From positions 31,511 through 95,510 of the IMG/VR virus record IMGVR_UViG_3300046002_005654: 64,000 nucleotides of DNA. One strand, written 5' to 3'. A model generated the notes under the pieces. It ran no database searches. It saw only the letters and a list, made by a program, of their open reading frames with translations, and had not been told where the DNA came from. How positions within the stretch are numbered: the stretch's first letter is position 1; every line of letters begins with the position of its first letter. Origin of the DNA: a virus. Both the position numbers and the translations under genes were made by a program. Positions 26,264 to 61,817 of this stretch are shown here, piece after piece.

Positions 26264-28540
26264 TTAAGTAATAGCATTTTGTTGCCAATTATTGTTTTGT
26301 ATTGGTTTATAATTTTTATTAAAGAAGTTATCTGCAGACGCATTAGTTATCTTCTTATCTTGATTTCCTTTTGCCACAGCAGTTCTTTTAACTCTATCTT
26401 CTCTTAATATAAATAACATACCAGCGGCTGAAACTCTATCAAAGTTACCATCACTATTCCAAGCTATACATTCTTCTACATATGGAATACTTCTAAGTCT
26501 ATGCATATTAAGTCTTTCATCTTCGTCATCTCCGTGAGCTTTTGTTTTCATCCACTCAGCTTGTAACATTCTTCCCCAGCTATTTATTTTTGCATTAGCA
26601 TGAGTCCCTTTAGCTTTATTACCATATAGATTAGTTGCTTTAACCATATCCATATCTTTTAATATTTGAGGTACATCAGCAAGGTAGTGTAAACAATTTT
26701 TACTATCAAAATAACTAAATAATCCTTTTAAATTTGATTCATAATTAGCTTCTGCATTGTAAAATCTTAAACATCTTAATGCTATTTCATAAGCTTCATT
26801 TGCTAATCTAGGTCTTCCTGAATATTCAGCAACTATCCTATCTGTAAATAAATCCATTATATGAATACTAAATAATGATCCACCTGTATCTGAATCAATA
26901 GGGTCAATCCCTGCTATATATCTACCTCGTTGAATATCTCCTTGAGCATTCTTTCTTGGCATTTCAAATATTTCAAGACATCCAGTTCTATTGTTATCAG
27001 ACGAATCATAAGCCCTTAATGGACTTAAGTCAGAATTAGGTTTCCATTCAACTTCTCCTAAGTTATTTAAAAGTAATTCACCAACATAGTGTTCAGCTAA
27101 AAACGATTCTTGTTTAGGCGCAATACTTTCAAGATACTCTTTTAAATCAGCCACAGGAAACATAGTTCCTTCAGTTCTCATTACAGCTTCTTGAGGAGTA
27201 ATAGGTTCTTCAGCTTTTTTCTGAGTAATAGCTGTAGATTCAGATGAACTATACTTAACATCAAATCTATCTATTAATATCTCAACAAGTGCTTTAATTA
27301 CATCTGGTTCTCCATTTGTATCATCATAACATCCATTACGATTTAAATATGCTCCCCAAAAGAAAGAACAAAGACTTTCTCCATTTGTATTTTTATCAAA
27401 TACATTTTTTAAAGCATATATATTATAAGCACCTGGTTTATAAAATAGTTTTTCAGAACCTGCAAATGAAGCTCCCATTGTACCTCCAGTCCCACCAGCT
27501 AGCATAAATCCAAACGCCACATCACCATCCTCAACAGCTTTTCTATTTACATTCCAAGCTTTTTCAAGATTATTAAATAGACCGTCTTCTTCATAATGAA
27601 TTAAAGGGCCCCTAATACCCCTGGCTTTATCTGGATTATCCTTTAATGATATACCAAATATAGAGGCTAAGTTTCCTTTACGAGAACCATATTCGTCTAA
27701 GTATCCAAGCTGTAATTCCATAGCTTTTTTACCATCGACAATTCTATTCTTAGCTAAAGGAGTGTGTTCTCCAATCCAGTCTAACGTATCGAGAATCTTA
27801 CCCCAGATTCCTTTATCACCTGATAGAAACGTTTTATCTGATGCCAAGTGAAAGTTTGGATTACCAGAACCTGGATATACGTACATATTACGAGGAGACT
27901 CAGAAGCATTTTTAAAACTAAAACCGATTCCCCTAGTTTTGAGAACCTTACCATGTTGACCATTGTCTTTTGCTTGTTGTGTATAGTGAAAATATAGATA
28001 ATCTCCAAGCCAAGCTTTAGCAAACTTCTTTACACGCTCTCCTTTTGACTTCTTATTTTCTGATTTTAAACCTACAGTTTCTACTAACCATATTGGGCTG
28101 TAGTTCCAGTAGAAGTACAATGTTCCAGGAATCCATTCTCCGTCGGATTCCCTGACAACACCGTGCTTCCATTTATATAATTCATCTTTCCAAAACTGAG
28201 CATACTCAGATTTAGGATTTGAATTTCTTGGTATATTAGTATACCTTCCATTTTTTTCAAAGAATATGGCTGCTTGCCTAAAGTAGTCCATATCCTCTAG
28301 TATATGTGGATTAGTTAAATCTACTTCAACCCTTCCGTCTTTATAAAATTTATCTTCTCGTGGTTTATCTTTACAGAAACCTCTTTCATCTTCTGATGAT
28401 ATAAGGTTTTGTATAAACTTAACACTTGATATATATTCTAACAGTTGGTCATATACTTCTTTTGGAATCTCTTTATTATCAAGCATTTTTCTATAATACG
28501 ATATAGGTGTTTGATAATCATTAAGTCTATTTAAGTCCAT
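26264..28540 (-). CDS. terL: Terminase large subunit
   Basis: 758 residues, with the long N-terminal region characteristic of crAss-like TerL (WKHGVVRESDGEWIPGTLYFYWNYSP). The ATPase part has a TRGIGFSFKNA loop in the Walker A position and LIHYEEDG as the Walker B/catalytic carboxylate. The nuclease domain is marked by YIAGIDPIDSDTGGSLFS, with an Asp pair for metal. It packages DNA into the prohead through the portal. It starts 10 nt inside the end of the chaperonin gene, so the two are co-translated. Confidence 0.9.
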   Translation of the reverse strand: MDLNRLNDYQTPISYYRKMLDNKEIPKEVYDQLLEYISSVKFIQNLISSEDERGFCKDKPREDKFYKDGRVEVDLTNPHILEDMDYFRQAAIFFEKNGRYTNIPRNSNPKSEYAQFWKDELYKWKHGVVRESDGEWIPGTLYFYWNYSPIWLVETVGLKSENKKSKGERVKKFAKAWLGDYLYFHYTQQAKDNGQHGKVLKTRGIGFSFKNASESPRNMYVYPGSGNPNFHLASDKTFLSGDKGIWGKILDTLDWIGEHTPLAKNRIVDGKKAMELQLGYLDEYGSRKGNLASIFGISLKDNPDKARGIRGPLIHYEEDGLFNNLEKAWNVNRKAVEDGDVAFGFMLAGGTGGTMGASFAGSEKLFYKPGAYNIYALKNVFDKNTNGESLCSFFWGAYLNRNGCYDDTNGEPDVIKALVEILIDRFDVKYSSSESTAITQKKAEEPITPQEAVMRTEGTMFPVADLKEYLESIAPKQESFLAEHYVGELLLNNLGEVEWKPNSDLSPLRAYDSSDNNRTGCLEIFEMPRKNAQGDIQRGRYIAGIDPIDSDTGGSLFSIHIMDLFTDRIVAEYSGRPRLANEAYEIALRCLRFYNAEANYESNLKGLFSYFDSKNCLHYLADVPQILKDMDMVKATNLYGNKAKGTHANAKINSWGRMLQAEWMKTKAHGDDEDERLNMHRLRSIPYVEECIAWNSDGNFDRVSAAGMLFILREDRVKRTAVAKGNQDKKITNASADNFFNKNYKPIQNNNWQQNAIT

Positions 28541-29991
28541 TGGCGTTCGTTCAATACAACAGTATCTGTTGATAGTATTGTTCTAGCTACAGATACTGCA
28601 TTTTCTAATGCACATCTAGTTACTTTAAGTGGGTCAATTATATTTTTTTCAAACATATCTGTCAACGCAGGAACCCCTATTATATCTATAGGTTTATTTA
28701 AACTAACAAGTATTCCTAATTCTACTGAATTATGAGATAAATCTTTTATTGTTTTAGCTACTATTTGATTTGCATTATATAAAGCTATTCCTCCTCCTTG
28801 AACAATTCCCTCTTCTAATGCACAAGATGTTGCCAGAACTGCATCATCATATCTATCTTTACGTTCTTTCATTTCTATTTCAGAAACTCCACCAACTTTG
28901 ATTATGGATATTTTTCCAGTAAGATTAGTTATTCTTTGTTCTATTAATTCCTTGTCTTGTTTAGTTAATTCTTTAAGTTTAGATAAAGCTTTTAAATCTT
29001 CTATGTATTCTTTAATGTCTACATCAGGATGTTTAACTAATATACTATTACTTTTAGTTACTTTTAAAGACTTTAATTTACCAAATGATGTTAGACTATA
29101 TTGTTTAGTAAAATTGTTAATTAAATCAGCTCCTGTGAAGTCAGAGATATCACTAAGTAAGTCTTTTCTATATTGAGAAAATCCTGGAGACTTAATAACA
29201 CATAATTTTAATGATCCACTAAGGACGTTTGACTCTAACAATCTAAGTAGATTTTCAGAAAGACCTTCTGTAATAATTAATAATGATTCGTTATTTTCTG
29301 CTATTTGTTTAATAGGAGTTTCAAATGATTTAAGATTTTCTAACTTACCATCTATTAATAAAACATATGGGTCTTCAAAGTTACATTCAGCTTTCTTATT
29401 TGTATTTATAAAGTGTTTTGAAAAATATGATACTTGTAATGACATACCATCTATTAACTCTAATGAGTCTTCATTATCATTACTTTCTTCTACTTTAATT
29501 ATACTTGCGTGATTATAAGCTTGTTGTATAATATCACCTATGTGAGTATCATTATTAGCCGATATGCTTGCAAGATATTTAATATCTTTATGTTCTAATT
29601 TTCTTGAGTTTAGTTTTAGTTGTTCTAATACTTTTGGTATAATCTCGTCAAACGCTTTATTTATTTCATTAGAATCAAAGTCTTTTAGATTCTGTATAAA
29701 TGAATTAGCTAATACTATAGCCGTTGTAGTTCCATCACCTGCTAAATCAACTTGTAATTCAGCAACTTCTTTTACTATTTTAGCACCAATATTCTCTATA
29801 GCATTTCTAAAGTAAATCTCTCTAGCTACTTTAACTCCGTCTTTAGTTATTTCAGGATCTCCATATTGATTAGATATAATTACAGTCTTTCCATCAGGTC
29901 CCATTGTAGAAGCTACAGCTTGCGATAACTTTTCTACGCCACTAAATAATAGGCTTCTAGCTTCGTCTTTAAAATATATTTCTTTATTCAT
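28531..29991 (-). CDS. GroEL-like chaperonin
   Basis: 486 residues, about 60 shorter than bacterial GroEL. The equatorial ATP site is intact: STMGPDGK (residues 28-35) matches the GroEL TLGPKGR loop and GDGTTTA (85-91) is the canonical nucleotide motif; GGGIALYNA and the GVPALTDMFEK region close the domain. The hydrophobic Gly-Gly-Met tail of GroEL is absent. It would form a folding ring, probably with the GroES-like protein at 30986-31345. It overlaps terL, placing it with capsid assembly genes, so a virion protein is the likely client. Confidence 0.9.
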   Translation of the reverse strand: MNKEIYFKDEARSLLFSGVEKLSQAVASTMGPDGKTVIISNQYGDPEITKDGVKVAREIYFRNAIENIGAKIVKEVAELQVDLAGDGTTTAIVLANSFIQNLKDFDSNEINKAFDEIIPKVLEQLKLNSRKLEHKDIKYLASISANNDTHIGDIIQQAYNHASIIKVEESNDNEDSLELIDGMSLQVSYFSKHFINTNKKAECNFEDPYVLLIDGKLENLKSFETPIKQIAENNESLLIITEGLSENLLRLLESNVLSGSLKLCVIKSPGFSQYRKDLLSDISDFTGADLINNFTKQYSLTSFGKLKSLKVTKSNSILVKHPDVDIKEYIEDLKALSKLKELTKQDKELIEQRITNLTGKISIIKVGGVSEIEMKERKDRYDDAVLATSCALEEGIVQGGGIALYNANQIVAKTIKDLSHNSVELGILVSLNKPIDIIGVPALTDMFEKNIIDPLKVTRCALENAVSVARTILSTDTVVLNERQWT

Positions 29992-43264: not shown

Positions 43265-43600
43265 GGGGCTGACTGGTTTTGAGGTTGTGTCAGTAATTAT
43301 ATAATTCATCCAGAGAGATAACTGTAAACTAAGGTGAATATTTTTAAACGGCAAAAATCAACAAGAAGCCAATATGGCTAAAGTTTTTTCTCTAATCAAC
43401 AGCGACATAGTCGAATTTGAATTAGCAGCATAGTTTAAACGATTGTAGTAATACAATCAACTCAAGCTATAGAGTAATTTAGTGACTAGTCCACATTTAG
43501 TAGTTTTTAAGGGACTTTAAAGATTAAATTCTACAAAAAGCTGTATAAAATTATATAACAAAAGCATTGATCGACGGGAGTTCGACTCTCCCCAGCTCCA
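43265..43600 (+). ncRNA. ssrA: tmRNA (transfer-messenger RNA)
   Basis: The 5' GGGGCTG (43265-43271) pairs with the 3' CAGCTCC (43593-43599) as a 7-bp acceptor stem with one G-T pair. The T arm GGGAG-TTCGACT-CTCCC (43576-43592) is canonical, and the 5' part has the conserved ACTGG of tmRNA D-loops. An inner reading frame ends in Glu-Phe-Glu-Leu-Ala-Ala and TAG (43431-43433), the hydrophobic end typical of degradation tags. The likely resume codon is GCC at 43368 (tag begins A-N-M-A-K-V), giving about 21 residues, longer than the short tags I recall for Bacteroidota. It would rescue stalled ribosomes and tag their products. CCA is not fully encoded (ACA). Confidence 0.9.
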
Positions 43601-43738
43601 CAGCAGTTACTTGATGTCAAATATGTACAGTAACAGACATTGGAAAAATTTGGCTTTTCACGAATGTTAAGTCCTATCGGGCAGAATAGGGGATGAGTAC
43701 TTATGGTAAAACTTTCAAAACCTACAACCTCATCAAAT

Positions 43739-43826
43739 AGTCAGGTGGCGGAATTGGTAGACGCTATCCTTAGGGAGAGTCCGAGTTAAAAACGGCGTTC
43801 AAGGTTCAAATCCTTGTCTGACTACA
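43739..43826 (+). tRNA. tRNA-Leu-like gene with irregular anticodon arm
   Basis: Acceptor AGTCAGG (43739-43745) pairs with TCTGACT; the T arm is CAAGG-TTCAAAT-CCTTG; the D arm has GCG-GAATTGGTAGA-CGC; and a long variable arm (CCG...CGG) marks class II, hence Leu. The expected TAG anticodon is present in CTTAGG, but the anticodon stem is short or mispaired: the best fold gives CTATC/GAGAG with an A-G mismatch and a 6-nt loop. It may be a working tRNA-Leu(TAG) with a poor stem or a decaying one. Confidence 0.6.
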
Positions 43827-53714: not shown

Positions 53715-54149
53715 ATGGAAAAAGATGAAAAATTAGTAGCAGTTTATGGCTCGTTAAGAGAAGGAATGCATAATAATGGAATGTTAGGAAAATCTGAATA
53801 TATAGGAAGTTTTAATTCAGAACCATCATATACCATGTTTAGTGTAAATGATCAATATCCTGCTGTAATAAATGAAGGCTCTACTTCAATATTATTAGAA
53901 GTATATAAAACAAATCCAGAAGTTCAAAAGAAATTAAACTTTTTAGAAGGGTATCATGATTCAAAAGATACAAAACATAATTATTATAATAGAGAAACTA
54001 TAGAAACTCCATATGGAGATGCTTATATATATTATTTTAATAACGATACTTCAAACTGTAAAATGGTTGAATCAGGAGATTGGTCTTCTTGGATGGCTGA
54101 AAAAGAAAAAATTAAATCAGAAAAAATATACAACGAATGGGGTTATTAA
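53715..54149 (+). CDS. Gamma-glutamylcyclotransferase-like (AIG2/GGCT fold) protein
   Basis: 144 residues, the family's usual size. VYGSLREGMHNNGM (residues 10-23) is the YGSLR ligand-binding loop of the GGCT/AIG2 family; FLEGYHD and NYYNRETIETPYGDAYIYYF follow. Enzymes of this type cleave gamma-glutamyl amides by ring closure (5-oxoproline) or remove gamma-glutamyl groups. Starts a close operon of amide-bond enzymes and overlaps the ATP-grasp gene by 13 nt. Confidence 0.8.
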   Translation: MEKDEKLVAVYGSLREGMHNNGMLGKSEYIGSFNSEPSYTMFSVNDQYPAVINEGSTSILLEVYKTNPEVQKKLNFLEGYHDSKDTKHNYYNRETIETPYGDAYIYYFNNDTSNCKMVESGDWSSWMAEKEKIKSEKIYNEWGY

Positions 54150-55072
54150 TAAAAAGAGTAGCTAAAAAAGAAACAGGAACAGTAGGTGTTGGAAAATATA
54201 GACCTATGATACGAAGTCGCCATCCATCTCATAATAAATTAAGATATGAAATAGCTAAATTGCCTTTCAGATCAGTTATTAGATTTGGATCATTAACAGA
54301 ATTAGTAGATAAATCATCATTAGATGGAAAAAGAATTGAATTAAATTCTAAAGAAGCTATTAGAAATAGTTCTTCTAAATTTAGAATGAAACAGTGTTTT
54401 ACTAAAGCAAAAGTTAAAACTGCTGAATGGTTTGTTTATAATTCAAAAGGAAATGGAAATAACTTTAGAAAACAATTTGCAGGGAGTAAAGACGATACTG
54501 ATTTAGAGGGATGGGAAGATTTTTCAGAAAAAATATTAGAATATCCAATAGTATCTAAACATCACTTTGGCTCAAGAGGTACTGGGAATAAACTTCATAA
54601 ATCTCAAGCTGAATTACAAGATTGGATGAAAGATAAGCAATTAGATAATTATATTTTTGAAAAATTTGTTAATTATAATAAAGAATATAGACTTCATTGT
54701 ACAAAAAATGGATGTTTTTACGCTTGTAGAAAAATGTTAAAAACAGAATTTAAAGATCATCCTAATGCTTGGCAAAGACACGATGATAATTCAGTATGGA
54801 TTTTAGAAGAAAATGAAAATTTCGATAAGCCTTCAAATTGGGATGAGATAATTGAAAATTGTGTTAATGCAGTAACGTCTTGCGGATTAGATTTTGGAGC
54901 TTGCGATTTAAGAGTACAAAATAATATTGATGAAGATGGTGTAAAAAGATCTCATTGTGACTTTATAGTTATTGAAGTTAATTCAGCTCCTTCATTTGGA
55001 GATGTAACTTTAAAAAAATACAAAGAAGAATTACCAAAACTTTTAATAGAAAAACATAATGCTAAAAGTTAA
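54137..55072 (+). CDS. ATP-grasp ligase (RimK/YheC-like)
   Basis: 311 residues. Visible landmarks: PIVSKHHFGSRGTGNKLHKS (Gly-rich nucleotide loop, about 138-157), EKFVNYNKEYRLHC (about 175-190), CDFIVIEVNSAPSFGDV with the metal-binding Glu/Asn near the C-terminus. ATP-grasp enzymes make amide bonds through an acyl phosphate. The substrate is unknown; membership of this cluster suggests amino-acid addition to a peptide or carboxylate. Overlaps both neighbours. Confidence 0.8.
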   Translation: MGLLIKRVAKKETGTVGVGKYRPMIRSRHPSHNKLRYEIAKLPFRSVIRFGSLTELVDKSSLDGKRIELNSKEAIRNSSSKFRMKQCFTKAKVKTAEWFVYNSKGNGNNFRKQFAGSKDDTDLEGWEDFSEKILEYPIVSKHHFGSRGTGNKLHKSQAELQDWMKDKQLDNYIFEKFVNYNKEYRLHCTKNGCFYACRKMLKTEFKDHPNAWQRHDDNSVWILEENENFDKPSNWDEIIENCVNAVTSCGLDFGACDLRVQNNIDEDGVKRSHCDFIVIEVNSAPSFGDVTLKKYKEELPKLLIEKHNAKS

Positions 55073-55463
55073 AGACCCAAGAGAAGTAGAAGATTTTGCT
55101 ATGAATTACGAAGGTAATGGCATAAAAGTATTTATAAAAGGTGGTTATATGACTCAATTTAGATATATAGAAGCTCCAACTGGTAATTGTCAATTAGCAA
55201 GCGCATATAACTTTTGTAATGTAATGCCTTATTTGAATAAATATAAAATTAGAGACTTGTTTATAAAAATGAGAAAAGGACAATTTATATTAAAAAGAAT
55301 ATTATTATTAGATTTAAACAGAAAATACGCAAATAATGTTGTTGAATGGCTTGCTCCGGGATCTATAATTGGAAATATGCCTTATAAATCAACAAATGGA
55401 AGTCAAATGAATATATTACTAATAAATTTAAGCTTAGTAAGGCAATTGCAATTACCAAAATAA
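55059..55463 (+). CDS. Small protein in the amide-bond cluster, unknown
   Basis: 134 residues, mixed alpha/beta: PTGNCQLASAYNFCNVM (about 45-60) and APGSIIGNMPYKSTNGSQM (about 100-118). Overlap with the ATP-grasp gene (14 nt) argues for working together. An acetyltransferase-like fold is one option because such domains occur in described amidoligase clusters, but I see no clear motif. Confidence 0.5.
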   Translation: MLKVKDPREVEDFAMNYEGNGIKVFIKGGYMTQFRYIEAPTGNCQLASAYNFCNVMPYLNKYKIRDLFIKMRKGQFILKRILLLDLNRKYANNVVEWLAPGSIIGNMPYKSTNGSQMNILLINLSLVRQLQLPK

Positions 55464-55481
55464 AAATAAAAAAATAGAAAA

Positions 55482-56192
55482 ATGAAAAAAATAATAGGAA
55501 TATACGCAGATGCCTTTAACGGAAAAGTTGGACAAACAGTACCTTATATGCAATTCTTTAGTCAATTTGGATATATTAGATTAATTTCTACATTAGACAA
55601 TCTTGATAATATTGAAAATGAAATAGATGTATTAGTTTCTCCAGGAGGCGCTGATGTTAATTCAGCTTTATATGGTAAAGTTCCTGGCGCTATGGACGGT
55701 AGAGCTAATCAGCATTATGAATATTTAGATAGTGTATTGTTACCTAAATTTATTCAAGCAAATAAACCTATTATAGGTATTTGTAGAGGAATGCAAGCTA
55801 TTAATTGCTTTTTAGGAGGTAATTTAAATCAACATATAGTAGGTCATCATCAAGGAGATGATAGACAGTCAACAAGACAAAAAGTTCAATTTACAAATAA
55901 TGATGGTGAATATTACATAAATACAATGCATCATCAATCTGTAGAAAAATTAGGTATTGGATTGGAATTATTGGCATATTCTCAACAATTTAGAGGATGT
56001 TATTCAGCTCAAGAAACAAGAATGACTTGGAGATATTTCAATAAAGAAGGAGTTATTGATAATAGAGTAGAAATGCCTATTACAATAGAGGCTTTTAAAC
56101 ATATTGAATTACCAATACTTGGAGTTCAATGGCATCCTGAAGAATTTAATTGTGAGTTTACAGTAAGTGAAATTAATAAATTATTAAAATAA
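55482..56192 (+). CDS. Class I glutamine amidotransferase / peptidase C26-like (copy 1)
   Basis: 236 residues. Catalytic triad visible: nucleophile elbow GICRGMQA (Cys101), His218 and Glu220 in GVQWHPEEF. SPGGADVN (about 53-60) is the oxyanion strand. Closest in style to PuuD gamma-glutamyl-gamma-aminobutyrate hydrolases, which split gamma-glutamyl amides; alternatively it could supply ammonia. Copy 2 follows 4 nt later. Confidence 0.8.
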   Translation: MKKIIGIYADAFNGKVGQTVPYMQFFSQFGYIRLISTLDNLDNIENEIDVLVSPGGADVNSALYGKVPGAMDGRANQHYEYLDSVLLPKFIQANKPIIGICRGMQAINCFLGGNLNQHIVGHHQGDDRQSTRQKVQFTNNDGEYYINTMHHQSVEKLGIGLELLAYSQQFRGCYSAQETRMTWRYFNKEGVIDNRVEMPITIEAFKHIELPILGVQWHPEEFNCEFTVSEINKLLK

Positions 56193-56196
56193 AAAA

Positions 56197-56880
56197 ATGG
56201 AAAAGAAAAAAATAACAGTATTGGTAAATAAATCTGCAGGACATGAATCTTGTGTTGAATTTTTAAATGAAAGATTTGATGTTAATGTAATTGACTGTAA
56301 AGAAGACTTAGATCGTGTAAAAATAGATTTAATGTTATTTACAGGTGGTGAAGACGTAACTCCTTCTTACTATGGAGAAAGCAAAGGAAAATTTACTGGT
56401 AATAGCGAAAAAAGAGATGATATTGAAACTACGTATATGTATCAAAGAAGTAGAATGCATGGCATTCCTAAATTAGGTATATGTAGAGGAGCTCAATTTT
56501 TAACAGTAATGAGCGGAGGAAAGTTAATTCAACATGTTAATGGACATGGAATGAGTGGATCTCACCCATTAAATATGAAACATCTTGGAATTGATGGTGA
56601 ATTTAAAATAACATCTACGCATCATCAAATGATGTTTCCTTATAATCTTGAAAAAAAAGATTACGAAATAATAGCTACTTCTAGTTATTTTCTTTCTAAT
56701 ACTTATTTAGACGGAATTAATCAAGAAAAAGAATTGCCAAAAGATTTTGAGGAATGTGAAATTGTATTTTATCCAAATTCAAATTCATTATGCATTCAAG
56801 GTCATCCTGAATATAGTAATTGTCCTAAAGATACTATTCAAGAATGTTTAAACTTAATTGAACAATATTTAAAATTATAA
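56197..56880 (+). CDS. Class I glutamine amidotransferase / peptidase C26-like (copy 2)
   Basis: 227 residues, a diverged paralog of the gene before it. TGGEDVTPSYYG, nucleophile GICRGAQF (Cys96), and IQGHPEYS with His203 and Glu205 keep the triad. Two linked copies suggest two different substrates or a heterodimer. Class I hydrolases of this type act on gamma-glutamyl bonds. Confidence 0.8.
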   Translation: MEKKKITVLVNKSAGHESCVEFLNERFDVNVIDCKEDLDRVKIDLMLFTGGEDVTPSYYGESKGKFTGNSEKRDDIETTYMYQRSRMHGIPKLGICRGAQFLTVMSGGKLIQHVNGHGMSGSHPLNMKHLGIDGEFKITSTHHQMMFPYNLEKKDYEIIATSSYFLSNTYLDGINQEKELPKDFEECEIVFYPNSNSLCIQGHPEYSNCPKDTIQECLNLIEQYLKL

Positions 56881-56882
56881 AA

Positions 56883-57689
56883 ATGAATAAATTTAATATA
56901 ACATTAGGGGCAGACCCAGAAACTTTTATTTGTGATGACAAAGAAATAGTTTCAGCTGAAGGATTAACTGAAGGAGGGACTAAAAAAGAACCAAAAATGA
57001 TTAGCGAAGAAGGCCATGCTATTCAAGAAGATGGAATTATGTTTGAATACAATATTCCCCCCTGTAAAACAGAAGAAGAATGGGTTAACGCTCATAAATT
57101 TTGTATTGATTATTTAGAAATATTAGCTAATGTTAATGGATTTAAATTAAGTGGTGAGGTTAGTGGTGTTGTAAATAAAAAATATTTAAAATCATTACAA
57201 GCAACAACCTTTGGTTGTGAGCCAGATTTCAATGTTTATGCAAAATCAATTAACGAAGCTCCTGATAACAATACAAACTTAAGATGCGCAGGTGGACATG
57301 TAGCTTTTGGTTATGATAATCCAGAATTTCCAACATCTGAAAAAATTGTAAAAGCTTTTGATATGTTTGTTACTTTACCAGCCCTCTTTAAAGACAATGA
57401 TACGCGTCGAAGAGAGTTATACGGAAAAGCAGGCTCATTTAGAGTAAAAGATTTTGGTGTAGAATGTAGAGCATTATCAAATTTTTGGATTAAATCCGAA
57501 GAAAACATGAGATGGGTATATAGACAATCAATTAAAGCAATTGAATGCGTTTTAAACAACGAAATTGACGAATTGATAGAATTATACTCTGAACAAGTTA
57601 GAGAGGCTATAGATACAGCTAATTTAGAATTAGCCACTAAATTATTAATTAATATTAATAGTGAAAAAAGAGAACTAGTAAAAATATAA
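56883..57689 (+). CDS. Phage-type COOH-NH2 ligase (glutamine-synthetase-like fold)
   Basis: 268 residues. LGADPETF (residues 7-14) is the signature start of the phage COOH-NH2 ligase family; EDGIMFEYNIPPC (about 48-60) and the FGCEPDFNVY and AGGHVAFGYDN segments are the remaining acidic and His landmarks. The family is predicted to join a carboxylate to an amine with ATP, using a glutamine-synthetase/gamma-glutamylcysteine-synthetase-type fold. Spaced 2 nt from copy 2. Confidence 0.85.
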   Translation: MNKFNITLGADPETFICDDKEIVSAEGLTEGGTKKEPKMISEEGHAIQEDGIMFEYNIPPCKTEEEWVNAHKFCIDYLEILANVNGFKLSGEVSGVVNKKYLKSLQATTFGCEPDFNVYAKSINEAPDNNTNLRCAGGHVAFGYDNPEFPTSEKIVKAFDMFVTLPALFKDNDTRRRELYGKAGSFRVKDFGVECRALSNFWIKSEENMRWVYRQSIKAIECVLNNEIDELIELYSEQVREAIDTANLELATKLLININSEKRELVKI

Positions 57690-57699
57690 CAAAAATAAA

Positions 57700-59628
57700 A
57701 TGGAAGTAAAAATAATATTAATATTATTAATAATACACTTATTAGGAATAATAATTTTTAAACCAAAGATGAATATTTTATCTTGTGGAATATTCGGATG
57801 GGCTGGTAAGAGTTATAAAACTTTCAACAAAGCTAAATTTGATATTCAAGGACTATATAATGATTCTAGGGGTGGTGACTCTTGTGGAGTTACTACTGAT
57901 GGGGAAATTTATTATGGATTAACTGGATCTAAACATTATAGTGATTTTTTACATAAAAATGGATATGAATCACCTTTAATGATTCCTACAGTAATAGGTC
58001 ATACAAGAAAATCTAGTAGCGGAACTGTTAATACTGACAATGCACATCCTTTTGGATTTGGAGATTATGAAAAATCTTTTGAATTTGTAGGCGTTCACAA
58101 TGGAACTTTGCATAATCAAGCAGTAATAGCAAAACAATTTGACTTAAATACATCTGTAGAAGAAAAAAACAATTTTGGAATTAGTACTTGGAAAAGAAAT
58201 AAAATAGATTCTGAAATTTTATTAGAAATTATTTATTTAAATAAAAATTTTAAAGTTTTATCTGACTACATAGGAGGAGCTGCTTTATTGTTTACCAATA
58301 CTTTAGAGCCTAATGTATTATATGCATTTAAAGGAGCTTCAAGGCTTGATGAGTATGATAAAGGAGTTGATCTTGAAGAAAGACCTTTATATTATTATAA
58401 AGAATCTAAAAATAGTTTATACATTTCATCTTTACAAGAAAGTTTAGAAGCTATTGGAGGAGTTGCAAATGAAAATCTATTTAGTCTTAATCCAAATACT
58501 GTATATAAAATAACAGATGGTAATATAGATTCTGCAGAAAAATTTGAAATTTCAAGAAGAAATGCCCACCAAAGACCAGCTACTTATAAAACAACTAAAT
58601 ACTCTGCTTGTGGATATGAATGGAAATCTAAAAGAGAAACTGAGTGGGAGGACTTAAGAGATTCGTCAAAAAAGGAAAGCGGAGTAGAAAAAATTCAAGA
58701 AGAAAAAGAAATTAGAATTTTTAAATCTCCTATTACGTTTAATAAATTAAGGTATCATAGAAATGGCCATCTAATAAACGGAATATGCGTTTGGATTAAG
58801 GATTATGGTTTTCATTTAATATCTCAAAAATTAGAAGTTGCTGATAAAGAAGCTTCGGAAATGATAGGTCAAGCATACGATATGGAGTATGGATTTTTTG
58901 CATTTGAAAAAAATATGAGTGTTATTGATGAAAACGTTATATATCCATTTACAGTTGAAAATAAAAAAGTTCCTGGATTATTCTATTTTTACGATGGAAT
59001 TATGTTAGAAACCAGATTAGATTATTCAGCTGTTAATCAAAAAGTAAAAAACTATAATGTATGGGATTTGTCAGAAATGTCAAAACATCCAATTATAGAA
59101 ATAAATAAATCTGATACGTATCACAGATTATATAATCAAATTATATTTAAAAGAGTTGCTTTTACTGGAAATATTTCTCCACTAAGTAGTAGTAAAATTT
59201 ATTATATTAATCAAGGTGATTTAACAAAAACTGATTTAATAGACAAAAAACAAATTGAAGATTCATATGTTTCTGCAATAACTTTATATAATAAAGAACA
59301 TGAAGGTCAATTAATTTTAGATGTATTAAATAAAGATAATGACGAAGAGCTTATTAAAAAGAAATTTACTGAATTTTGTAAATTAAACGAATTAGAAGTT
59401 ACAAGTTGTGATGAGAGTGAAGATAAAAAAATAGAAATAGATAAGGAAGAAGATCTTGTAATTAGACAATCTGTAGATGTTATAATATCTCCTGTTTATT
59501 TAAAAGTTCAAGAAAGTATATCTATATTATCTGAATTTGAAGAAAAAGATTTTATTAAAGAAATAATTGAAATAAATGAAGATTATTTAAACTTAATGGA
59601 CGAAATAATTGTTAAAAATTATAAATAA
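57700..59628 (+). CDS. Class II glutamine amidotransferase with long C-terminal region
   Basis: 642 codons if the start at 57700 is used. The class II core is LSCGIFGWAGKS (nucleophile Cys29, or Cys6 from the inner ATG at 57769), RGGDSCGV, IGHTRKSSSG and GVHNGTLHN. The first 23 residues are hydrophobic (KIILILLIIHLLGIIIF), so the longer start gives a membrane anchor or cleaved propeptide; the shorter gives the near-terminal Cys normal for the family. Residues after ~290 show no asparagine-synthetase motif. It would release ammonia from glutamine. Confidence 0.75.
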   Translation: MEVKIILILLIIHLLGIIIFKPKMNILSCGIFGWAGKSYKTFNKAKFDIQGLYNDSRGGDSCGVTTDGEIYYGLTGSKHYSDFLHKNGYESPLMIPTVIGHTRKSSSGTVNTDNAHPFGFGDYEKSFEFVGVHNGTLHNQAVIAKQFDLNTSVEEKNNFGISTWKRNKIDSEILLEIIYLNKNFKVLSDYIGGAALLFTNTLEPNVLYAFKGASRLDEYDKGVDLEERPLYYYKESKNSLYISSLQESLEAIGGVANENLFSLNPNTVYKITDGNIDSAEKFEISRRNAHQRPATYKTTKYSACGYEWKSKRETEWEDLRDSSKKESGVEKIQEEKEIRIFKSPITFNKLRYHRNGHLINGICVWIKDYGFHLISQKLEVADKEASEMIGQAYDMEYGFFAFEKNMSVIDENVIYPFTVENKKVPGLFYFYDGIMLETRLDYSAVNQKVKNYNVWDLSEMSKHPIIEINKSDTYHRLYNQIIFKRVAFTGNISPLSSSKIYYINQGDLTKTDLIDKKQIEDSYVSAITLYNKEHEGQLILDVLNKDNDEELIKKKFTEFCKLNELEVTSCDESEDKKIEIDKEEDLVIRQSVDVIISPVYLKVQESISILSEFEEKDFIKEIIEINEDYLNLMDEIIVKNYK

Positions 59629-61817
59629 TGGAAGAGCTTATAACAACAATAAGTGGAAAACAATGTAAAAAATCTGAATGTAGATTAATTGAAAAACAAT
59701 ATTATTTAATTGGAAAAAATAATGTTGAAAATTCAGGAGATGTATATTTATTAGATAATAGATATATAAGAGAAAATACAGGAAGAGTTGTTTTTAATAA
59801 TAGTTCTAAATCTTATCAATTAAAAAATGATAGTTTAGATTATGGAATAGTTTCTATGGATCAAGAATCTAATTTTATTTTTGGATATTTTAATCAAGAT
59901 GTAAATTGTCAATTATTAATAGATAAAAATCAAGGAACTCATAAATGTATTAATGAAGAAATAATTAATAGAAATTTTAGAGAAGAATTATCTACTGGAT
60001 ATTTTTATCATATTTCTTTAATGAAGGCTTGCAGATTTAATTTAATTAAAAACGTTAAAAAAGAGCTTAAAGAATCTTTACCTTACGATTCAAAAGGAAT
60101 AATGGGAAAATATATTGAAAGATATAATAATAATTACAAACCCGTTATAAATCATACAATTGAAAAATTTAGTAAAGCAATAGGTGGTTTAACGTTTGGT
60201 TTTGAATTTGAAACTGTAAAAGGAGTTATACCAAATAATAAATTATCATTACTTCCGTTAATTCCATTAAGAGATGGAAGTATTGGAGGATTAGAGTATG
60301 TTACAATACCATTAAGTGGTGCAAAAGGAATAAAAGCACTTATTGATTGTGTAAAAGAACTTGAAAAAAGAACTGAATATAACAATGATTGTTCTCTTCA
60401 CCTCCATCTTGGAAACATACCAAGAACTCCTGAATTTATATTAGCTTTTTACAAACTAATATCTTCTCATCAAGAAGAGATGTTTTCTTTATTTCCATTA
60501 TATAAAAAATATAATTTTGGAGTTAAAAGAAAAAACTATTCAGAACCGTTTCCATTTAATGATATTAATTGTAGATTAGATGCTAAAATAAATCCAAAAG
60601 ACAAACCTCAAGTAAATCAAAATTTTGATGTTTTATTTTCTCATTTGACTGGTCAGCATACTTTTTACGATTATGGATGTGATTTAATTAATGTTGATCA
60701 TCACCCAGCAGATCCTCAAGGTAATCAAAAATGGAATATAAAAAAGAGATATTACGCATATAATTTAATTCCATTAATATTTGGTAATAAAGAAACTATT
60801 GAATTTAGAATTCATACTCCTACTTATGATATTGATAAAATATTAAATTTCTTGTTTATTAATTCTTATTTAATAAATTATACAATTGCAAATCAAGATA
60901 AAATATTATCTGATCCTAGTTATTTGTGTGTAAAAAACAATAAGGGTATTGGTAAATTAATTAGTAATCATTTTGCAAATTCAAATTTTTTAACAGGAAA
61001 TGACAAAGATGCTTTAGCTAATTATCATCATAATTATATTGAAGAAAGAAGAAGAGTAACTTATGAAGATAATTGTAAAGGAAATATTATTGGTAATGAA
61101 GATAGTATAAATTGCTACAGATCTATAAACTGGAAAGAAGAAGAATCTTTTAATAAATATAATGTAAATAATCTTAAATATAATTATATAGGAGAAGAAG
61201 ATGGAGAATTAAAAGCTTCATTAAGTTATAGAGATTGGGATTCTTTAAGGAAAAAAACTCAAGGACAAATAAAAATGGAGTCTACAATTGGAGTTTCTAA
61301 AAGAAGAGGCACAAGAGTTCTTACTAGTTATGGAGATTCTGAATTTCCAAGAAAAATGTTTGGAGAAGGAGAAAGGCATTTTAATAATAGAGTTTCTGAA
61401 TGGAATCAATTAAGCAAATCAGCTGAAAAAATTAGCGGTAATGAAATAGCAGAAGGTATTTACATTGATAATCCTAATAGAGAACTTGAAGTTGAATTAA
61501 ATACTAAATATTTAGAAGCAATTAAAGTTATGGAAAATTCTATTCGTAGCACAATTGCATCGCCTAGTGTTCAATCTGGATACGCTTCTTATAGAGATTC
61601 AAGAAAAATGGTTACTGGAGATGGAACTATAAATAATACTGTAAATTCTATAAGTGAACTTGATAAAGCTGTCAAGTATTCTTTAGATAAAAATGACTGG
61701 GGTTGGAGTGATTTAATTCCAGAATATCATACTGTTAATTTAGGAATTGAGCCAATAGAAGATTTAAAACCAGAATCAGAGCCTAAATTAGTTAAAGTTA
61801 AATCTAAATTTTGGTAA
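59628..61817 (+). CDS. Amidoligase (glutamine-synthetase-like fold), large
   Basis: 729 residues; one-base overlap with the preceding gene. The amidoligase core is LTFGFEFETVKG (about 188-199, Glu ligands), SIGGLEYVTIPLSG (about 218-231) and CSLHLHLG (about 255-262), then KETIEFRIHTPT. The first 180 and last 250 residues are extra and of unknown fold. Amidoligases are predicted to use ATP to form amide bonds on peptides, cell wall or other acids. Last gene of the amide-bond operon. Confidence 0.85.
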   Translation: MEELITTISGKQCKKSECRLIEKQYYLIGKNNVENSGDVYLLDNRYIRENTGRVVFNNSSKSYQLKNDSLDYGIVSMDQESNFIFGYFNQDVNCQLLIDKNQGTHKCINEEIINRNFREELSTGYFYHISLMKACRFNLIKNVKKELKESLPYDSKGIMGKYIERYNNNYKPVINHTIEKFSKAIGGLTFGFEFETVKGVIPNNKLSLLPLIPLRDGSIGGLEYVTIPLSGAKGIKALIDCVKELEKRTEYNNDCSLHLHLGNIPRTPEFILAFYKLISSHQEEMFSLFPLYKKYNFGVKRKNYSEPFPFNDINCRLDAKINPKDKPQVNQNFDVLFSHLTGQHTFYDYGCDLINVDHHPADPQGNQKWNIKKRYYAYNLIPLIFGNKETIEFRIHTPTYDIDKILNFLFINSYLINYTIANQDKILSDPSYLCVKNNKGIGKLISNHFANSNFLTGNDKDALANYHHNYIEERRRVTYEDNCKGNIIGNEDSINCYRSINWKEEESFNKYNVNNLKYNYIGEEDGELKASLSYRDWDSLRKKTQGQIKMESTIGVSKRRGTRVLTSYGDSEFPRKMFGEGERHFNNRVSEWNQLSKSAEKISGNEIAEGIYIDNPNRELEVELNTKYLEAIKVMENSIRSTIASPSVQSGYASYRDSRKMVTGDGTINNTVNSISELDKAVKYSLDKNDWGWSDLIPEYHTVNLGIEPIEDLKPESEPKLVKVKSKFW

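Follow-up and report, generated by a model that had tools for sequence, protein, structure and literature searches.

What does a phage do with eight adjacent genes, most of which encode enzymes that make or split amide bonds, and on which substrate do they act? We addressed this question for a 64,000-nucleotide stretch of viral DNA (hereafter, the window), which corresponds to positions 31511-95510 of the 95,510-base IMG/VR virus record IMGVR_UViG_3300046002_005654. Eight open reading frames (ORFs), all starting with ATG and ending with TAA, occupy positions 53715-61817 on its + strand (Table 1), where an earlier inspection of the DNA letters (the sequence-only reading) had proposed an operon of a crAss-like phage that makes or edits gamma-glutamyl or isopeptide links on the wall, capsule, virion or a small metabolite. 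As described below, the eight genes form an intact and conserved cassette that very probably has the chemistry for making and removing gamma-glutamyl groups.

Enzyme families and active sites

Profile searches against Pfam, PHROG and NCBIfam bore out the amide-chemistry family calls of the sequence-only reading for seven of the eight genes. The cyclotransferase, both C26 proteins, the COOH-NH2 ligase and the amidoligase scored above curated Pfam cut-offs; the ATP-grasp ligase and the class II amidotransferase scored below them and were backed by PHROG, NCBIfam or structure-profile matches. Specifically, both profiles singled out beforehand exceeded their gathering cut-offs, PF14395 for the COOH-NH2 ligase with 31.7 bits (cut-off 25) and PF12224 (Amidoligase_2) for the amidoligase marginally, with 22.9 bits (cut-off 22). 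Catalytic residues were then checked on family alignments of 81-106 sequences, using columns conserved at 85% or more. Only two of these columns departed in the window, both non-catalytic and both in the first C26 paralog (C26a). The loss of catalytic residues on which the sequence-only reading could have failed was therefore not seen, since all conserved catalytic columns were kept and the families were matched.

Table 1. Features of the cassette in the window, and of paired genes in related loci (positions counted within each locus)
Feature	Position	Strand	Length	Match or remark
Gamma-glutamyl cyclotransferase-like (GGCT/AIG2/YtfP)	53715..54149	+	144 aa	PF06094 1.5e-15; PHROG 2520 5e-24
ATP-grasp ligase, RimK-like	54137..55072	+	311 aa	PHROG 2599 7.5e-30; PF02222 3e-4, below cut-off
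P3, predicted GNAT-like fold	55059..55463	+	134 aa	AlphaFold2 pLDDT 82
C26 / class I amidotransferase paralog a (C26a), gamma-glutamyl-amide hydrolase type	55482..56192	+	236 aa	PF07722 3e-26
C26 / class I amidotransferase paralog b	56197..56880	+	227 aa	PF07722 8e-18; PHROG 7218 3e-37
COOH-NH2 ligase (phiEco32 type 2)	56883..57689	+	268 aa	PF14395 1.2e-7; PHROG 3815 4e-68
Class II (Ntn) glutamine amidotransferase	57700..59628	+	642 aa	PF13522 4e-5, below cut-off; PHROG 4736 3.5e-8
Hydrophobic leader of class II amidotransferase	57700..57783	+	28 aa	Ends directly before nucleophile Cys (codon 57784-57786)
Amidoligase	59628..61817	+	729 aa	PF12224 8.8e-5; PHROG 2443 5e-40
Paired ~300-aa protein genes	L002 6451-8352; L004 6827-9008; L006 5172-6985; L009 6988-8974; L010 7222-8972

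The cyclotransferase, whose nearest solved structure is YtfP (1xhs), has the YGSLR motif and the GGCT-family Glu of LEGY (E78). The ATP-grasp protein keeps K81, E183, R185, K199, D257, E280 and N282, and its closest structure profiles were an alpha-L-glutamate ligase (7qyr, 6e-12) and RimK (4iwx, 4e-10). Against the RimK subfamily model TIGR00768 it reached 32.5 bits, below the curated cut-off of 143.4; it works like an ATP-grasp amide ligase and is not classed as RimK. The two C26 proteins are paralogs, as had been supposed (phmmer 2e-16), with C101, H218 and E220 kept in C26a and C96, H203 and E205 in paralog b. The best NCBIfam match of C26a was gamma-glutamyl-CDP-amidate hydrolase (NF045546, 8e-12; 45.7 bits, below the 250-bit cut-off); it also matched the PuuD structure 6vtv (4e-5), with PuuD profile scores far below cut-off. 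The class II amidotransferase matched the GlmS subfamily (2.8e-9) and keeps C29, R103, N134, G135 and D170, and the amidoligase keeps E193, E195, D216, E223, H258, H260, E392 and R394. About 200 C-terminal residues of the amidoligase (residues about 500-729) had no family match in the profile searches and, on alignment, were absent in the proteins of phages phi14:2, cr108_1 and Lbo-JY46.

A sequence search of solved structures gave nothing meaningful for the COOH-NH2 ligase or the amidoligase. An AlphaFold2 model of the COOH-NH2 ligase, built from a 63-sequence alignment (pLDDT 94.5), matched glutamine synthetases, YbdK, plant glutamate-cysteine ligase, gamma-glutamyl-methylamide synthetase (GmaS) and naphthylamine glutamyl ligase, with E values between 9e-6 and 2e-4, which predicts a glutamine-synthetase/gamma-glutamyl-ligase fold; D11, E13, D50, E55, R134, H139, R176, R187, E194 and R196 are all kept. 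The enzymes matched activate the gamma-carboxylate of glutamate, suggesting that the phage enzyme would do the same. Taken with the RimK-like profile of the ATP-grasp ligase, the nearest matches of C26a and the family of the cyclotransferase, this ligase fold points to making and removing gamma-glutamyl groups as the shared theme of the cassette.

Conservation of the cassette among phages

The source is a crAss-like phage, as the sequence-only reading had recognized: the major capsid protein of the window matched PF23898 (Crass_capsid) at 5.5e-172. Judged by this protein, Cellulophaga phage phi14:2 is the closest relative in culture, with 64% identity. Relatives of the COOH-NH2 ligase were found by tblastn in 311 of 50,697 phage records, mostly of Pseudomonas and Escherichia phages, and every named bacterial host among the matches listed was Gram-negative. 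Note that a similar gene set is cited in the literature for a Bacillus subtilis phage. A scan of bacterial genomes gave only three relatives, all on contigs of metagenome-assembled genomes with the same cassette genes; these contigs may be phage.

Two scans of viral contigs yielded 112 loci, and co-occurrence was counted in the 57 non-redundant metagenomic loci with enough flanking sequence. The COOH-NH2 ligase was accompanied by the class II amidotransferase in all 57, by the amidoligase in 56, by the ATP-grasp ligase in 54, by C26 in 51 and by the cyclotransferase in 49. All six enzyme families were present in 45 of these loci, indicating that the set is conserved when its synteny is followed, as the sequence-only reading had suggested doing; at least two C26 genes were present in 25 and P3 in 10. 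The core of the cassette is thus the COOH-NH2 ligase, the class II amidotransferase and the amidoligase, nearly always with the ATP-grasp ligase. The common order in crAss-like phages was primase - GGCT - [C26] - ATP-grasp - [P3] - C26 - [C26] - COOH-NH2 ligase - class II amidotransferase - amidoligase - [uracil-DNA glycosylase-type] - RusA-like, where brackets mark optional genes. Amidoligase, class II amidotransferase and ATP-grasp genes also accompany the ligase in phages phiEco32, Salmonella 7-11, tf, O4, Asterion, BUCT695, Lbo-JY46, cr108_1 and phi14:2. In another type of cassette, two class II amidotransferase-type genes flank the amidoligase (loci L059, L062, L063, L066, L069, L070 and L074).

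The eight ORFs lie in a row with gaps of, in order, -13, -14, +18, +4, +2, +10 and -1 nt, in agreement with the overlaps or gaps of at most 18 nt noted previously. However, the flanks are packed equally tightly (upstream primase, 125-aa ORF and GGCT; RusA-like gene 3 nt downstream), so that spacing alone proves little and defines no operon. A promoter and terminator scan gave promoter-like sites no more often than shuffled sequence and no clear boundary for a separate transcription unit. What places the cassette beyond chance is its synteny, as dozens of distinct contigs have these genes in a largely unchanged order.

The sequence-only reading stated correctly that such phage systems had been predicted with no substrate identified, but it missed that published work on cultured phages has already named the cassette and proposed what it acts on. 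"Peptidoglycan modification cassette" is used for phiEco32-, LUZ24-, PA11- and RIO-1-like podophages, with Iyer 2009 and Hardies 2013 as the sources cited, in PMC5498523 and PMC11945000; the roles suggested in the literature are superinfection control or endolysin targeting. The podophage cassette has the same enzyme set (COOH-NH2 ligase, amidoligase, ATP-grasp ligase, class II amidotransferase, cyclotransferase and often a class I amidotransferase) and is likewise tightly packed beside replication genes. The window has the first four of these together, with the cyclotransferase and class I amidotransferases in the same run. On the other hand, its gene order differs, and it has the twin C26 genes, the leader of the class II amidotransferase, the long C-terminal extension of the amidoligase and P3, where the podophage cassettes have proteins of ~200 and ~300 aa.

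Also missed was phi14:2 (Steigviridae), the closest cultured crAss-like phage, which is annotated with five cassette genes. It shares the order primase - cyclotransferase - ATP-grasp - COOH-NH2 ligase - class II amidotransferase - amidoligase with the window, with 51% identity for the ATP-grasp ligase and 36% for the amidoligase, and it has the leader. However, neither the C26 genes nor P3 are present in phi14:2, whose amidoligase also falls short of that in the window by about 200 aa. Leptolyngbya phage Lbo-JY46 and crAss phage cr108_1 have most or all of the main enzymes (cr108_1 lacks the cyclotransferase there), with a class II amidotransferase that has no leader. Since the cassette is published in podophages and annotated in phi14:2, the window set is a new crAss-like variant and not a new system; the features that distinguish this variant are P3, the twin C26 genes and the leader.

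Hydrophobic leader of the class II amidotransferase

Among relatives of the class II amidotransferase, we found 30 that carry distinct leaders of 26-43 residues. These are strongly hydrophobic and all end just before the nucleophile Cys; other relatives start directly with M-C. Position -2 was Leu in 29 of the 30, and position -1 varied (S, N, G, F, A, Y or V). The second codon position was the best conserved within the leaders (74%, as compared with 60% at other positions), as expected if their hydrophobic character is selected. Net charge was higher on the C-side than on the N-side in 27 leaders, equal in three and lower in none, from which the positive-inside rule predicts a cytoplasmic catalytic domain. 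The charges favour, as a prediction, either a membrane anchor facing the cytoplasm or a cleaved propeptide.

An Ntn nucleophile requires a free amino group. Because the Cys is residue 29 behind the leader, either the leader is cleaved or the protein is not a normal glutaminase. In one specific model, which we regard as fairly unlikely, the crAss-like class II amidotransferase would be a pro-enzyme that is tethered to the inner membrane on its cytoplasmic side and cleaves itself at L-x|C to free the Cys, and together with P3 it would form a machine that edits gamma-glutamyl groups at the membrane, on a lipid-linked substrate. We rejected the leader as a lipoprotein or ordinary signal peptide, given that the -1 residue varies and lipidation would block the nucleophile. 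A start-codon artefact was likewise rejected, as none of the leader-bearing genes checked had a start codon immediately before the Cys.

The 134-residue protein P3

The sequence-only reading assigned P3 to no family, and indeed no family profile matched it. Its AlphaFold2 model was built from a 20-sequence alignment, and the top 16 fold matches in the PDB were all acetyltransferases or acetyltransferase-like proteins. The predicted topology agrees with the GNAT core, with a weak fold match (best E 0.009, TM about 0.5). The acetyl-CoA loop Q/RxxGxG/A was looked for in P3, and no such motif was found; the conserved motifs are P-T-x-N-C-Q and Y-x-S-T-N-G-S-x-M. We therefore describe P3 as GNAT-like by prediction and do not call it an acetyltransferase. 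Relatives occur in about 20 loci, in some of them as tandem copies. Lbo-JY46 has two relatives of ~250 aa, whose C-terminal half corresponds to P3. Long C26 proteins (280-392 aa) in related loci were considered as P3-C26 fusions and rejected, as they have N-terminal helical extensions or C-terminal tails instead.

In podophages and cr108_1, paired ~300-aa proteins with an N-terminal C-F-G type motif are encoded directly or closely upstream of the ligase (Table 1); they had no Pfam match above cut-off. A common origin of P3 with these proteins (phiEco32-, 7-11- and cr108_1-like) was unsupported by hhalign (E 0.92 and 0.33), and comparison of the two ~300-aa groups with each other gave E 0.018. 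We claim no kinship of P3 to the ~200-aa proteins of podophages either.

Possible targets of the cassette

With somewhat less than even confidence, we propose that the cassette builds and trims gamma-glutamyl (amide or isopeptide) links in the host cytoplasm, early in infection and close to the inner membrane, with a wall precursor (perhaps the lipid II peptide or a soluble precursor of lipid II) as the most likely target. To judge from its family, the RimK-like ATP-grasp ligase would add an amino acid, probably glutamate, onto a free carboxylate. The COOH-NH2 ligase, in keeping with its predicted fold, and the amidoligase may then make further amides via acyl phosphates, and the class II amidotransferase would split glutamine and pass on ammonia or the glutamyl group. 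Removal of gamma-glutamyl groups by the two C26 proteins and the cyclotransferase could serve as proofreading or deprotection, with P3 as a putative non-canonical GNAT-like accessory protein. A membrane-proximal wall precursor is the most likely target as it fits both the leader and the published predictions. The proposal is also backed by the position of the cassette on the replication arm and by the listing of its SU10 orthologues among early gene products.

Several observations weigh against this proposal. The wall idea stems from gene content and from predictions in two papers (Iyer 2009 and Hardies 2013), as represented in the articles citing them. No MurT-like or other wall-specific protein was present among the cassette genes. 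Furthermore, 42 of the 72 class II amidotransferases with a recognised Cys motif have no leader, so that a membrane location is not essential. Finally, the amidoligase was found in only four of 115 records with a related capsid (phi14:2, cr108_1); most gut crAss-like phages lack the cassette, indicating that it is dispensable.

The same enzymes could instead make a soluble gamma-glutamyl metabolite or use gamma-glutamyl as a protecting group, with the ligases loading glutamate on an amine and the C26 proteins and cyclotransferase later removing it. In butirosin synthesis the ligase BtrJ and the cyclotransferase BtrG, and in putrescine metabolism the ligase PuuA and the hydrolase PuuD, join and then remove a gamma-glutamyl group, and the cassette, which combines ligases of the glutamine-synthetase fold with C26 hydrolases and a cyclotransferase, follows the same logic; GmaS and naphthylamine glutamyl ligases were also among the fold matches. 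However, the cassette is not a member of these pathways, as it has no amine substrate, carrier or oxidase genes, and no amine-producing enzyme, carrier protein or exporter was found in it. The closest relative of the ATP-grasp ligase is RimK, an enzyme that attaches alpha-linked glutamate to a protein, and the membrane leader would be unexplained. We thus consider a metabolite possible but unlikely.

The proximity to RimK would rather suit an amino-acid or peptide tag that is put on and trimmed from a host or phage protein, in the style of RimK or tubulin ligases, as a means of commandeering the host machinery. Related phage ATP-grasp families have been proposed to modify host proteins (PMC4431377, PMC7824862), and the orthologues in phage SU10 are listed among early gene products (PMC4281155), a timing shared with the wall-precursor proposal. 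Nevertheless, no conserved tag or acceptor protein was seen to accompany the cassette in all lineages, and two different amidoligases with up to four gamma-glutamyl-cutting proteins exceed the needs of a simple tag, which makes this explanation rather improbable.

Four cassette proteins were found in SU10 phage preparations (PMC4281155), which would be expected if the cassette modified capsid or tail proteins. However, these preparations also contained DNA polymerase, so that the cassette proteins were likely carried over. In phi14:2, structural genes bear notes of virion detection by tandem mass spectrometry (MS/MS) and the cassette genes bear none. In the window, the capsid, portal and endolysin genes are on the - strand, and the cassette is on the + strand alongside replication genes including a primase and a Sak4-like ATPase (names taken from the equivalent phi14:2 genes), i.e., on the replication arm and not the structural arm. 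Given this location, the phi14:2 notes and the early listing in SU10, virion modification is very improbable. Accordingly, the make-or-edit path of the sequence-only reading held with respect to families, active sites, ligase fold and co-occurrence, and of its four listed targets the virion became the least likely.

The location beside a primase in crAss-like phages, and near primase/helicase genes in phiEco32, tf, O4 and Asterion, might also suggest hypermodification of phage DNA; all lineages inspected had the cassette beside or close to primase or helicase genes. However, no DNA-modifying family is present within the cassette. DNA of the cassette-bearing phage tf was cut by RsaI, HpaI, EcoRV, SmaI and HaeIII (PMC3517423), and that of the LUZ24-like phage U17 by 11 of 16 enzymes (PMC11945000). 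As these published digests were normal for tf and largely normal for U17, we give DNA hypermodification hardly any weight.

Neighbouring genes and other features

A PADLOC search for defence and anti-defence systems gave no match. In Lbo-JY46 (L001 3742-7951) and Salmonella 7-11 (L009 993-3556), nicotinate/nicotinamide phosphoribosyltransferase and PRPP synthetase genes are near the cassette, a possible NAD-salvage neighbour. Elsewhere in the window, a phage transfer-messenger RNA (tmRNA) is encoded at 43265-43603 (+), with 52.9 bits over the whole Rfam model RF00023 and the ARAGORN tag GKNQQEANMAKVFSLINSDIVEFELAA; a tRNA-Pro lies after it at 43739-43825. A GroEL-type chaperonin gene (28531-29991, -; PF00118 6.9e-49) is just upstream of a large-terminase-type gene. 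A chaperonin 37% identical to it is encoded in the equivalent part of the phi14:2 genome, and relatives were present in 288 phage records.

Implications

This cassette is present in hundreds of sequenced phages, the majority of which infect Gram-negative bacteria. The present comparison fixes its core, predicts the fold of its ligase and weighs against virion and DNA targets, and the leader suggests a location at the inner membrane. Phages in culture that have the cassette, namely phi14:2 (which has the leader), phiEco32 and LUZ24, are suited to a direct test of the substrate. If the proposal is true, phages that rewrite wall precursors would control superinfection or time lysis in a new way.

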